The position numbers and the translations under genes are program-made. 40,021 bases of DNA, from assembly GCA_947632395.1 (NCBI GenBank), contig CANRPA010000006.1:1-40021 (forward strand), in the 5' to 3' direction. This DNA is from an uncultured Bacilli bacterium. Lineage in GTDB: Bacteria; Bacillota_I; Bacilli_A; RF39; UBA660. The notes under the pieces were generated by a model. The model searched no databases. It was not told the DNA's origin and saw nothing but the letters and a program-made list of their open reading frames with translations. This document shows, one piece after another, positions 13,364-17,372 of the stretch (the stretch's first letter is position 1; each line of letters opens with the position of its first letter).

Positions 13364-13440
13364 GTATCCGTAGCTCAGTAGGATAGAGCGATTGCCTCCT
13401 AAGCAATAGGTCGTTGGTTCGATTCCAATCGGGTACACCA
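13364..13440 (+). tRNA. tRNA-Arg (anticodon CCU)
   Basis: 77 nt cloverleaf: acceptor GTATCCG pairs with CGGGTAC; anticodon stem ATTGC/GCAAT with loop CTCCTAA giving CCU; T-arm GTTGGTTCGATTCCAAT; encoded CCA end. It reads AGG codons. The 3' side is the attachment point of the cassette array that follows directly. Confidence 0.95.
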
Positions 13441-13495
13441 GATTGATACCAAACTCGGACTATTTATAATTCGAGTATATATAATAAAAGACAAC

Positions 13496-13524
13496 TTGCA
13501 AAAAAGTTGTTTTTATGTTATGAT
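13496..13524 (+). promoter_or_regulatory. Promoter of antisense RNA 1
   Basis: TTGCAA, exactly 17 bases, TATGAT. The -35 lies inside the terminator hairpin that would end the tRNA transcript. It is repeated identically at 14150-14178. Confidence 0.6.
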
Positions 13525-13530
13525 GTATTT

Positions 13531-13642
13531 GTCAAGGAAACTTGCATAAAATAAAAAAAGGATACATTTGATTGCAGGAATCAGATGTTATCCCTTATGG
13601 AATGCATCTGAAATCAACTATTGTTGAAATCAGATGCTTTTG
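13531..13642 (+). ncRNA. Candidate antitoxin RNA 1
   Basis: Predicted short RNA from the TTGCAA/TATGAT promoter. It would contain hairpin 13560-13593 (GGATAcATTTGATT against AATCAGATGttATCC) and end at hairpin 13604-13637 (GCATCTGA...TCAGATGC) followed by TTTT. It is complementary to the 3' untranslated end of the minus-strand peptide mRNA, the arrangement of TxpA/RatA- and Fst-type type I antitoxins. Ends are estimated, not mapped. Confidence 0.55.
13560..13593 (-). terminator. Terminator of the minus-strand peptide mRNA (unit 1)
   Basis: Read on the minus strand, GGATAACATCTGATT pairs with AATCAAATGTATCC and is followed by TTTTTTT. Confidence 0.65.
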
Positions 13643-13720
13643 CTATTTTAGAAGTAAAATAATTACGACTAAGAATAGGAGTAATATTGTAATAAATTGA
13701 GAAAATTCTCTTTTTGTCAT
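13643..13720 (-). CDS. 25-residue hydrophobic peptide, candidate type I toxin (copy 1)
   Basis: Too short for the ORF track. The minus strand reads MTKREFSQF followed by an uninterrupted hydrophobic run (ITILLLFLVVIILLL) and a final Lys: one predicted transmembrane helix with a charged N-terminus. AAGGCGGTGAT lies upstream at suitable distance, and a promoter with a 17-base spacer lies at 13827-13799. Size, composition, leader structure and the convergent antisense RNA match membrane-active type I toxins (Fst, TxpA, Ibs classes), though I recognise no specific family. The unit 2 copy is identical in sequence, consistent with either recent duplication or selection. Toxicity is inferred only. 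Confidence 0.62.
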   Translation of the reverse strand: MTKREFSQFITILLLFLVVIILLLK

Positions 13721-13798
13721 AAATATCACCGCCTTTCTTTTATCCTTTGATAAATAGAAAGGGAAAGCATCTGATATATTTCAAATGTATCCATGAAT

Positions 13799-13827
13799 AT
13801 TATATCAAACATTCGTTCTTAATACAA
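13799..13827 (-). promoter_or_regulatory. Promoter of candidate toxin 1
   Basis: Minus strand: TTGTAT, 17-base spacer, TATAAT. The predicted start near 13792 gives a leader of about 70 bases beginning with GGATACATTTGA. Confidence 0.6.
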
Positions 13828-13844
13828 TAAAAATAATATTTGAT

Positions 13845-14067
13845 ATGAAAAAAAGCATAAAAGTTGAAAAAAACTACATAGTAGATAATTTTTTATCAAA
13901 AGGTTATGCTCAATTTTATGTAGAAAATGAAATAATAAATCTAACTGAAGGAGAAATGTTAGTATACAAAGTATGCATTTAAAGGACATTTTATTTCTAT
14001 TTTGATAGATTGTCCTACCTTTGATTCAGCAGATGATATTATTTATGAGGAACAAATTAAAGAATAA
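13845..14067 (+). pseudogene. Decayed ORF in unit 1
   Basis: The plus strand reads MKKSIKVEKNYIVDNFLSKG... for 45 codons to a TAA. A shift of one frame then continues as FKGHFISILIDCPTFDSADD to a stop at 14067, suggesting an original protein of about 75 residues. No ribosome site precedes the ATG. I do not recognise the family. The unit 2 copy is also broken, at different positions. Confidence 0.45.
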
Positions 14068-14184
14068 GTGCTTTAAAAAATTGTAGTACTTCTTAGATTG
14101 ATACCAAACTCGGACTATTTATAATTCGAGTATGTATAACAAAGACAACTTGCAAAAAAGTTGTTTTTATGTTATGATGTATTT

Positions 14185-14296
14185 GTCAAGGAAACTTGCA
14201 TAAAATAAAAAAGGATACATTTGATTGGGATAATCAAATGCAATCCCTTATGGGTTGCATCTGAAATCAACTATTGTTGAAATCAGATGCTTTTGC
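14185..14296 (+). ncRNA. Candidate antitoxin RNA 2
   Basis: Driven by TTGCAA-17-TATGAT (14150-14178). Contains hairpin 14213-14247 and terminates at hairpin 14257-14290 followed by TTTT. Same layout as RNA 1. Confidence 0.55.
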
Positions 14297-14373
14297 TATT
14301 TTAGAAGTAAAATAATTACGACTAAGAATAGGAGTAATATTGTAATAAATTGAGAAAATTCTCTTTTTGTCAT
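14296..14373 (-). CDS. 25-residue hydrophobic peptide, candidate type I toxin (copy 2)
   Basis: Identical peptide to copy 1 with the same AAGGCGGTGAT ribosome site and the same promoter (TTGTAT-17-TATAAT at 14480-14452). One predicted transmembrane helix. It sits between a convergent antisense RNA and the decayed ORF of unit 2. Function is inferred from architecture, as for copy 1. Confidence 0.62.
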   Translation of the reverse strand: MTKREFSQFITILLLFLVVIILLLK

Positions 14374-14451
14374 AAATATCACCGCCTTTCTTTTATCCTT
14401 TGATAAATAGAAAGGGAAAGCATCTGATATATTTCAAATGTATCCATGAAT

Positions 14452-14480
14452 ATTATATCAAACATTCGTTCTTAATACAA
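14452..14480 (-). promoter_or_regulatory. Promoter of candidate toxin 2
   Basis: Minus strand TTGTAT, 17-base spacer, TATAAT, same as unit 1. Confidence 0.6.
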
Positions 14481-14497
14481 TAAAAATAATATTTGAT

Positions 14498-14730
14498 ATG
14501 AAAAAAAAGTATAAAAGTTGAAAAAAACTACATAGTAGATAATTTTTTATCAAAAGGTTATGCTCAATTTCATGTAGAAAATGAAATAATGAATCTAACT
14601 GAAAGAAAAATGTAAGTGATTTCTAAAAATACAAAGTATTCATTTAAAGGACATTTTGATTCCTTTGGGCAGATTGTCCTGCCTTTGATTCAGCAGATGA
14701 TATTATTTATTAGGAACAAATTAAAGACTA
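14498..14730 (+). pseudogene. Decayed ORF in unit 2
   Basis: Homologous to 13845-14067, but an extra A in the run after the ATG (ATGAAAAAAAAG) shifts the frame after a few codons, and in-frame stops follow. An internal block (GTGATTTCTAAAAAT) retained here is missing from unit 1, so the two copies decayed separately. Confidence 0.45.
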
Positions 14731-14759
14731 AGTGCTTTAAAAAATTGTAGTACTTCTTA

Positions 14760-14959
14760 GATTGATACCAAACTCGGACTATTTATAATTCGGGTATGTA
14801 TAATAAAAGACAACTTGCAAAAAAGTTGTTTTTATGTTATGACACATTTGTCAAGGAAACTTGCATAAAATAAAAAAGGATACATTTGATTGTGTGAATC
14901 AGATGTTATCCCTTATTGGTTGCATCTGAAATCAACTATTGTTGAAACCAGATGTTTTT
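14760..14959 (+). repeat. Truncated unit 3: antisense-RNA part only
   Basis: Third copy of the array unit, homologous from GATTGATACC through the second hairpin (GCATCTGA...CCAGATG, ending ~14955), then diverging. The toxin ORF and its promoter are absent. What follows is the HD gene. Confidence 0.9.
14850..14959 (+). ncRNA. Orphan antitoxin RNA candidate (copy 3)
   Basis: TTGCAA, 17-base spacer, TATGAC (14815-14843; weaker -10 than copies 1 and 2) would give an RNA with both hairpins, ending at 14932-14955 with a better T run (TTTTT) than the other copies. No cognate toxin is attached, but its sequence could still pair with toxin mRNAs of units 1 and 2. Confidence 0.45.
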
Positions 14960-15082
14960 ATTATCTAAATAGTAAGCATTATCATTTAATAAAATCACTA
15001 AACAAATAGTTCCTTTATCATTTTCTTGACTTTGATTTATCATCGTCAAATAATTTTTTTGTTATTTTTCTTAACTTATCAA

Positions 15083-16255
15083 CTAAAAATTCATATTCTT
15101 TTGCTTTACTCGTTGTTTAATTACACCATTGCTTAAGTCAAATAAATTGTTATCCCTTACTACCCTTAGCATATTAACAAATTCTGGAAAATCTTGACTA
15201 TCTTTATATATATCTATATCATATCCATACCATATATCAAATGCAGTTTGAGCTCCATTTTTTAACATTTGTTGAACTTTAGAACTTCCAAAGACACAAT
15301 TATTACTTTGATCATTTAAAGAATGATGTAATCCACTATCTTGATATAATTTAGATTGTAAATCAGCTTCAAATTTATCAAGGAAATGAGCAAGTATTGA
15401 CTGATTAGTAATTAAATCATCAAAATCAAACAGCATTTTTATTATTCTTTTTCTGTCACTTAAATTACCAACGGCATTAATCATTGCCTTATGTTCCATT
15501 TTTTTCTTTTCTTCAGGTGTAATTCCATCAAAAGGTGTTATATCTCCAATTAATGTTTCTCCAATTTCATGAATAGCTAAAAGTTTGTTAACTTCATCTA
15601 TTTCAATATTTCTATCAAAATTTAATTTCTCATTATAATCAAATTCTGAATCCATTGCTATTGCCAAAGCAATCGTACCTACAATATGTTCTGATATTCT
15701 TTCTATTCTTTCAGAATTGATATTCCAATGTTTACTGTCCCATCCACTTCTAATTTTATTCTTTAACCTAAAATTAAGATAATAAAACCTAAAAATTTCT
15801 TCATATTTAGAATATTCTTCAGCATTTTTAGGCATAAAAATTTTAACACCTTCTTTTAGTAAATTCGAATATTCCAATGAATTTCCTTGTTCTGAAATTA
15901 ACTTAGTTAAAGAAAAATCTAACATTTTATATTTAAAAATAAGTTTAGATTCTTTAGTTTGTAATAAACGTGTTTCATCTATTTCAGCTTTATATTGTTT
16001 TCCTTTTTTTAAAGAATCTACAAAATTATAATTTGGATTTAATCTTGAAAAATCATCTAATAACATAATTCTCAATAACTTTCCTACGTTATCAGTTTCC
16101 TTAAATTCAGAATCAATCGCTATTGCTAATATCATACTTCCAAAAATATGATCAGCAACACTATAATTATTAATTTTATCTATAATTGTAGTTTTTAATT
16201 TATTTGCTTGCGTATAAAATGTTAATGTATTTTTTATTTCTTCTAATTTTTGCAT
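15083..16255 (-). CDS. Double HD-domain protein (second HD likely catalytic)
   Basis: A 390-residue soluble protein with two related halves. Residues ~28-72 (YSVADHIFGSMILAIAIDSEF, then VGKLLRIMLLDDF) mirror residues ~184-238 (RISEHIVGTIALAIAMDSEF, then VNKLLAIHEIGETLIGD). The second half keeps the YfbR/HDDC2-type (HD_3) pattern: His190, His229, GDITPFD and a late Asp in AHFLDKFEADLQ. The usual HD pair is His-Glu (229-230). The first half has lost the pattern and is probably structural or regulatory. This family usually dephosphorylates nucleotides. Beyond the stop, another frame reads EYEFLVDKLRKITKKLFDDD, suggesting a 3' frameshift removed a tail. GGGAGAT and a TATAAT box precede the start. 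It is cargo of cassette 3. Confidence 0.75.
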   Translation of the reverse strand: MQKLEEIKNTLTFYTQANKLKTTIIDKINNYSVADHIFGSMILAIAIDSEFKETDNVGKLLRIMLLDDFSRLNPNYNFVDSLKKGKQYKAEIDETRLLQTKESKLIFKYKMLDFSLTKLISEQGNSLEYSNLLKEGVKIFMPKNAEEYSKYEEIFRFYYLNFRLKNKIRSGWDSKHWNINSERIERISEHIVGTIALAIAMDSEFDYNEKLNFDRNIEIDEVNKLLAIHEIGETLIGDITPFDGITPEEKKKMEHKAMINAVGNLSDRKRIIKMLFDFDDLITNQSILAHFLDKFEADLQSKLYQDSGLHHSLNDQSNNCVFGSSKVQQMLKNGAQTAFDIWYGYDIDIYKDSQDFPEFVNMLRVVRDNNLFDLSNGVIKQRVKQKNMNF

Positions 16256-16364
16256 GATAAATCTCCCTTGTTGATTGTATATTATACACTATATTTTTTA
16301 ATTTTTAATAATAATTTTAACTTTTTTTAATTATTTTTTGTTATTTGTGCTAAAGTACTATTAG

Positions 16365-16432
16365 AGATTGGTATCAAATTTGGAAAATTCGATTAAAAAT
16401 TTAAAACGTACTTGATAAAAGCGCGTTTTTTT
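16365..16432 (+). repeat. Right-hand junction of the tRNA-Arg array with terminator
   Basis: AGATTGGTATCAAATTTGGA matches the unit start AGATTGATACCAAACTCGGA at 16 of 20 positions, all differences being transitions. The preceding AGTACTATTAG matches the unit end AGTACTTCTTAG, and AATTCGA follows as in the units. A hairpin (AAAACG/CGTTTT, 16403-16427) with a T run then takes the place of the unit's terminator. This looks like a diverged fourth copy, closing cassette 3. Confidence 0.65.
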
Positions 16433-16529
16433 ACAATGTATATTTAATTAAAATGTAAAAGGCTATAAAAAAAAATAAATTTTAATAACTTTTTTCTTTT
16501 TATATGATAAAATATTAGTAGGTGGTAAG

Positions 16530-17372
16530 ATGAAAAATAAAAAAGTGATGGTATTTTTGTGCATAACTTTAATATTTTTGATAACATTTTGTTATAATAT
16601 AATGCCAATATTAGCTGATAGTGGTTTCGATTCAAGTTTTGATAGTGATTTTGATTCAAGTTTTGATAGCGATTCATCTAGTGATGGAGGTTCAGGTGGA
16701 CTATTTTATTTAGTATATTTATGTTTTGAGTATCCTCTTTTAGGGATAATAGTCCTAGCAATAATAATAGCTTTATTATATTTTCACAGTAAAAAGGCAA
16801 AAGAAGTAATAAGTAAGGCGTTAACTTCTAAATTAGAACTTTTGGATGTATCTAAATATCCAGAAGAAAAACAACTTGAAATAGAGGCGTTTAATATATA
16901 TAAGCAAATACAATATGCATGGATGAATTTTGATGAAGAAACAATTAGAAAATGTACAACAGATGAAATGTATAATATGTATTTGATGCAACTTGATACA
17001 TTAAAAGTTAAAAATCAAAAAAATTTAATGTATGATATTAAATATTTAGGAAGTAATATAAAGAAGAAAGAAGTAATAAATGGTCAAGAAACAATAATTA
17101 TGGAAATGAGAGTAAGCTGTCATGATTTTATATATGATACTAAAGCAAATAAAGTTGTAAGAGGAAGTTCTTCTAAAGTAAATTATTATACTTATGAACT
17201 TACATATGTTAAAACAGTTAATACTAAAGAAAATTCAGAAGATATTTGTCCTAGTTGTGGTGCTCCAGTAAAAGGAAATAATAGTGGAGTATGTGAATAT
17301 TGTAGATCAACATTAATTAGTAAAAATTATACATTAATTTTAAGTAAAAAGAAAATGATTTCACAAAGATAA
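16530..17372 (+). CDS. Tim44-like-domain membrane protein with zinc ribbon
   Basis: A 280-residue secreted/membrane protein: N-terminal hydrophobic signal (VMVFLCITLIFLITF), a low-complexity Asp/Ser/Phe stretch (FDSDFDSSFDSD), a transmembrane helix near 60-85, a Tim44/MRPL45-like domain (about 95-235; YPEEKQLEIEAFNIYKQIQYAWMNFD), then a CPSCGAP...CEYC zinc ribbon near the C-terminus. Bacterial proteins with this layout are of unknown function. The start follows AGGTGGT and the gene stands alone with its own terminator. The Tim44 assignment rests on overall pattern, so it is moderate. Confidence 0.7.
   Translation: MKNKKVMVFLCITLIFLITFCYNIMPILADSGFDSSFDSDFDSSFDSDSSSDGGSGGLFYLVYLCFEYPLLGIIVLAIIIALLYFHSKKAKEVISKALTSKLELLDVSKYPEEKQLEIEAFNIYKQIQYAWMNFDEETIRKCTTDEMYNMYLMQLDTLKVKNQKNLMYDIKYLGSNIKKKEVINGQETIIMEMRVSCHDFIYDTKANKVVRGSSSKVNYYTYELTYVKTVNTKENSEDICPSCGAPVKGNNSGVCEYCRSTLISKNYTLILSKKKMISQR

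Follow-up and report, generated by a model that had tools for sequence, protein, structure and literature searches.

A cassette array behind a tRNA-Arg(CCT) gene of an uncultured Bacilli bacterium, and its probable relation to serine-recombinase elements that target tRNA genes

How does a row of small gene cassettes come to stand behind a tRNA gene when no recombinase lies among them? This question is raised by a 40,021-nt stretch of contig CANRPA010000006.1 (assembly GCA_947632395.1, from a small, uncultured gut bacterium of the Bacilli), hereafter the window, in which a tRNA-Arg(CCT) gene located with ARAGORN (13364..13440, + strand) is followed directly by such an array. The sequence-only reading of this DNA had described cassettes joined by homologous boundaries at a tRNA, without a recombinase, and on both counts our analysis agrees. 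Here we argue that the array is probably a decayed stack of non-autonomous cassettes, located at the insertion site of mobile elements that carry a large serine recombinase (LSR) and target tRNA genes.

The boundary, GATTGATACCAAACTCGGACTATTTATAATTCGAG, begins at 13441, 14096 and 14760 in copies that are 96% identical, and a diverged fourth copy at 16366 closes the array. With a scoring matrix derived from 48 boundaries that lie outside the window, the three copies reach 35.1 and the fourth 14.6, and any unrelated site in the window scores 8.9 at most. As the maxima of 60 shuffled windows average 10.3 and extend to 21.2, the score of the fourth copy is only moderate by itself, and the right-hand junction, when aligned over a short stretch only, does not rise above chance. 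The fourth copy is nevertheless secured by a longer comparison, since its full 80 nt align with the left end and terminator of the tRNA-Leu(CAA) cassette in the same genome at a score of 71, where the maximum of 1000 shuffles is 35.

Nor is the boundary confined to this tRNA. In the genome of the window (G000; the other G-numbers denote genomes of the genus, and L-numbers fetched loci), the same DNA also follows tRNA-Arg(TCT), tRNA-Leu(CAA) and the transfer-messenger RNA (tmRNA) gene. Of 16 genomes examined in the genus, 13 contain the left-end pattern, the reversed control pattern having no matches, and in the fetched loci left ends stand straight after the CCA of tRNA-Arg, Leu, Phe, Met, Thr, Gly, Lys and Cys genes and of tmRNA. 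One left-end family is present in 71 of the 145 genomes of the taxonomic family, again with zero control matches. In five genomes most tRNAs carry other, simple trailers, and the boundary is therefore not the usual tRNA trailer of the genus.

The tRNA-Arg(CCT) site itself occurs both loaded and empty. Beside a conserved host HD gene it is loaded, with differing cassette content, in G000, G008, G015, G006 (contig C6), G011 and G007, whereas it is empty in G005, G013, G010, G004, G001, G002 and G006 (contig C24), where the trailers are short and unrelated. As such, the presence and absence of cassettes among relatives, on which the idea of mobile units had been made to depend, is found at this locus in place of a uniform fixed array. 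The empty sites also correct the view that each cassette brings a copy of the tRNA's own terminator: a terminator is indeed present at left ends, but because the trailers of empty tRNA-Arg sites are unrelated to it, it belongs to the cassette. In its syntenic position behind the host HD gene, tRNA-Arg(CCT) varies among congeners, with several clearly distinct sequences (L124-L137). Right after the boundary hairpin, two contig ends carry DNA that looks like the 5' part of a group II intron (L056:8640-8714, L068:3880-3965); this reading was dropped, as Rfam gave no match.

Serine-recombinase elements with the same ends

In six genomes a left end and then an LSR gene come after a tRNA: G001 (L228), G002 (L120), G008 (L238), G003 (L239), G015 (L255) and the genome of the window itself (L180). 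These autonomous elements sit at tRNA-Leu, Gly and Phe genes, and a full-length element runs in the order tRNA, left end, small open reading frame (ORF), LSR, relaxase, cargo and right end. The LSR at L228:5280-7235 matches PF00239 (1.3e-34) and PF07508 (1.5e-17) above the Pfam cut-off and PF13408 weakly (20 bits against a cut-off of 25.3), and thus has the Resolvase catalytic domain, the Recombinase domain and, by a weak match, the zinc ribbon of its class. The small ORF, present in five of the six with a length of 90-121 aa, lies for instance at L228:4814-5104, L180:689-961, L238:10332-10658 and L239:9625-9900, where it measures 90-108 aa; it is possibly an accessory or directionality factor, and those of L228 and L180 gave no Pfam match. 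A relaxase gene follows the LSR in several elements, and Mob_Pre was identified in a neighbour of the L228 LSR and also in L238. On the basis of their LSR and Mob_Pre genes, the autonomous members are probably integrative mobilizable elements (IMEs) with an LSR. In the genome of the window, the LSR at tRNA-Leu(GAG) starts at the end of one contig (C4) and its continuation ends another (C29); the two parts of the protein meet end to end (GAIKAG / HIPARAPLGY), suggesting a single gene.

A scan of GTDB with six of the element LSRs as queries returned 426 relatives, of which the best 80 were kept. Upstream of 54 of these 80 lies a tRNA or tmRNA gene on the same strand, mostly at 520-692 bp, with the left end right after the CCA. 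In a tree, the tRNA-linked LSRs form one clade (support 100/97), separate from most of the other LSRs that these genomes encode. Within this set, L282-L287 are close relatives that have near-identical left ends and yet occupy different tRNAs (Thr, Leu and Arg genes). A second group of LSRs that is also found in such arrays (L120:4558, L228:15804, L240) is placed outside the tRNA-linked clade.

Just before left ends that stand away from a tRNA there is usually another conserved motif, AAAGTTGTAG...(G)CACCA, which we take as the right end and which measures 27-29 nt from its GTTG to the junction. Its identity with the tRNA spans only about 4-7 nt. So where exactly would strands be exchanged? In the 18 elements having an LSR, a left end and a right end, tRNA positions -5/-4 (C72-N73) equal the right-end dinucleotide in every case (15 CA, 3 CT), and if the two were independent, a matching split of this kind would arise by chance about once in 816. 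Furthermore, when right and left ends are joined, their inverted symmetry is highest at C72-N73, where 9.3 of 18 positions match, and no other offset exceeds 6.9. Pairing right and left ends of different elements still yields 8.6, so that the symmetry is a feature of the family. A 2-bp core identical in attP and attB, in a pseudo-palindromic attP whose dyad peaks at the same dinucleotide, is what an LSR would be expected to use, and we infer a crossover at C72-N73, which in the tRNA-Arg(CCT) of the window would be C72-A73 at 13436-13437. The zinc-domain motif of attB is known to be shifted inward by about 5 bp relative to attP (PMC3783163). The GTT motif arms, counted by hand and suggestive only, measure 19 nt in the tRNA and 22-23 nt in the element, a shift of 3-4 bp inward in the same direction.

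Origin of the array and competing explanations

In the mechanism that we propose, the attachment site of an element, its right end joined to its left end, would recombine with the 3' end of a tRNA gene, the LSR presumably acting as catalyst. With the crossover at C72-N73, the left end of the element would restore the CCA of the tRNA, and the old CCA would move to the right end. The conserved T-arm (GTTCRA; in the window, the T-loop GTTCGA starts at 13417) is probably part of the half-site that is recognised, which is why a single recombinase might use many tRNA genes as well as tmRNA. Later elements would insert between the tRNA and the left end already present, and arrays would build up in this way. 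The tRNA transcript would still end, because the left end has a hairpin and often a terminator. Units 1-3 of the window would have been formed afterwards by tandem duplication and deletion.

Several observations weigh against this account and must be taken into consideration. The window array holds no LSR gene, and its type of end (family I) is tied to an LSR in one genome only, G002. A search with PF07508 gave no match in G006 and G013, though both carry left ends. Among the 80 LSR relatives, 26 show no upstream tRNA, though many of these lie on cut contigs, and at junctions L108:4001 and L121:9420 neither a tRNA nor a cassette is seen just upstream. Moreover, under the standard rules for LSRs attL is not a target, and these rules do not predict that new elements insert beside old left ends. 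It should be noted that every genome is a fragmented metagenome assembly.

The strongest competing explanation concerns the cassettes rather than the recombinase: those of the window might be decayed remains of autonomous elements that never moved by themselves, with no trans-mobilised cassette system behind them. The right ends in the window are damaged and many array members could derive from larger elements, which makes this possible, if rather doubtful. What speaks against it is the distribution of the cassettes themselves. The HD protein of the window agrees at 330 of 384 positions with a protein of 538 aa that is encoded in the tmRNA array of G010, so that the same cassette occupies different tRNA-type genes in two species, tRNA-Arg(CCT) and tmRNA. 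At fourfold degenerate sites of this genome pair, the HD cassette gene is 87% identical (79 sites) and a host gene 42% (24 sites), which indicates that the cassette was exchanged between the species after their divergence. Copies of the toxin-antitoxin module of the window, at 84-92% identity, likewise occur elsewhere in congeners, one of them beside tRNA-Ala in G007. Other cargo matched restriction-modification, OLD/AAA-like and PDC-M04A models of PADLOC (L238:841-6661, L121:11012-12960, L184:3891-4598), and KilA-N proteins were found too. Taken further, our account becomes that of a genome-wide system, in which a helper LSR directed by the T-arm would insert LSR-free cassettes in trans, many of them toxin-antitoxin modules, at numerous tRNA and tmRNA 3' ends, the tRNA genes together serving as array platforms comparable to an integron. 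This extension, including the movement of passenger cassettes in trans, we put forward tentatively, as an idea that may well prove right or wrong.

That a classical tRNA-targeting tyrosine integrase, or the host's own XerC/XerD, moves the cassettes is unlikely. Tyrosine integrases do serve most known tRNA-targeting elements (PMC4383910), and PF00589 proteins are encoded in every genome, two of those in G000 resembling XerC and XerD in sequence and in gene context. Among the non-Xer tyrosine recombinase loci listed, however, none has a left end adjoining the integrase gene, whereas LSR genes adjoin it at six tRNA sites, and the stretch in which tRNA and right end agree is short. The weakest explanation, a conserved tRNA-operon trailer with terminator in an array grown by ordinary local duplication, is very improbable, for while the boundary does carry a terminator and units 1-3 are duplicates, it is contradicted by the other trailers of most tRNAs, by boundaries found after right ends away from tRNAs, and by the empty and differently loaded sites, the orthologous tRNA-Arg(CCT) site being without a boundary in about half of the congeners. 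Single-strand mechanisms of the IS200/IS605-like or integron-like kind had been considered because of the hairpins, and were dropped after LSR-bearing elements with the same ends appeared.

Units of the window array

Unit 1 (13441..14095, + strand) is a cassette with a type I toxin-antitoxin-like module. Its family I left end of 35 nt, GATTGATACCAAACTCGGA...hairpin, stands straight after the CCA (13441..13475, +), followed by a terminator-like hairpin (13485..13520, +) that was computed and compared with shuffles. Overlapping this hairpin, -35/-10 elements of a putative promoter for the presumed antitoxin RNA can be read from the sequence. The presumed toxin is a hydrophobic peptide of 25 aa, MTKREFSQFITILLLFLVVIILLLK (13643..13720, -), and together with the inverted repeats it makes the module a candidate type I system (Fst/TxpA-like). 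The peptide is without a Pfam match, Rfam matched no toxin-antitoxin RNA family in the units, and viral contigs scanned for exact matches to the conserved promoter region of the toxin-antitoxin module yielded none.

The unit ends at a shortened right end (AAAAAATTGTAGTACTTCTTA; 14075..14095, +), in which the GCACCA of intact right ends is absent. Unit 2 (14096..14759, +) is 93.7% identical to unit 1 over 667 nt, encodes an identical peptide (14296..14373, -) and ends with the same right-end sequence (14739..14759, +). Unit 3 (14760..14975, +) retains about 216 nt, the left part of a third copy, the toxin being gone. Because both internal junctions share the same shortened right end (AATTGTAGTACTTCTTA), the simplest reading is that units 1-3 are tandem duplicates of one damaged cassette, and the three independent insertions that had been supposed are not supported. 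Unit 3 reads as a deletion that fuses a toxin-antitoxin remnant to the truncated HD gene. The latter (15083..16255, -) encodes an HD_3-domain protein of 390 aa that is truncated at the C-terminus compared with its 538-aa relative in G010, and PADLOC returned nothing for it. The array ends with a diverged right-end/left-end junction and terminator (16354..16445, +), apparently a remnant of a further toxin-antitoxin-type cassette. The first host gene to the right (16530-17372 of the window) encodes a Tim44-like domain protein.

Comparison with known systems

Serine recombinases at many tRNA 3' ends would be unusual, since surveys assign the targeting of tRNA genes almost only to tyrosine integrases. 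If our account is true, the clade shows how a serine recombinase may target a large share of the tRNA genes and yet keep each of them intact. It also provides compact att sites with which insertions could be made behind tRNA genes of gut Bacilli and Clostridia, groups that have been little studied. Integrons likewise hold small gene cassettes in arrays, and toxin-antitoxin modules are found in some of these cassettes, a similarity to the arrays described here. The present arrays differ from them in their tRNA-proximal end and LSR; an integron integrase or attC was not identified, no integron model having been searched.

The tRNA islands of tyrosine integrases (Islander, PMC4383910) resemble the elements described here in that the tRNA 3' end is restored by the element and in forming tandem arrays, but they use tyrosine enzymes and longer tRNA fragments. 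Firmicutes IMEs with a serine recombinase, such as Tn4451 (PMC5704250), share with them an LSR, a relaxase, very short direct repeats and a 2-bp core. Where that source treats these IMEs, however, they lie inside protein genes or insert with low specificity, and tRNA targets go with tyrosine enzymes. Multi-targeting LSRs (PMC10083194) also have several target sites per LSR cluster, but the targets described are protein-coding, and the main text does not mention tRNA.

The closest precedent that we found in the open-licence literature, outside which other descriptions may exist, and the only one found there for a serine recombinase with such a target, is that of the ssrA islands of Dehalococcoides (PMC3146451), which use tmRNA alone. 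Like the elements reported here, these islands have a serine recombinase (DsiB), insert in the 3' part of the tmRNA gene, stand in tandem at one site and resemble mobilizable elements. They differ in having ssrA as a single target, direct repeats of 20 bp, a crossover in the T-loop, and a CcrB-like DsiB with a partner, DsiA, and a six-gene module. The elements of the present clade, by contrast, occupy many tRNA genes, with repeats of about 4-7 nt, a probable crossover at C72-N73, and small cassettes that are free of an LSR.
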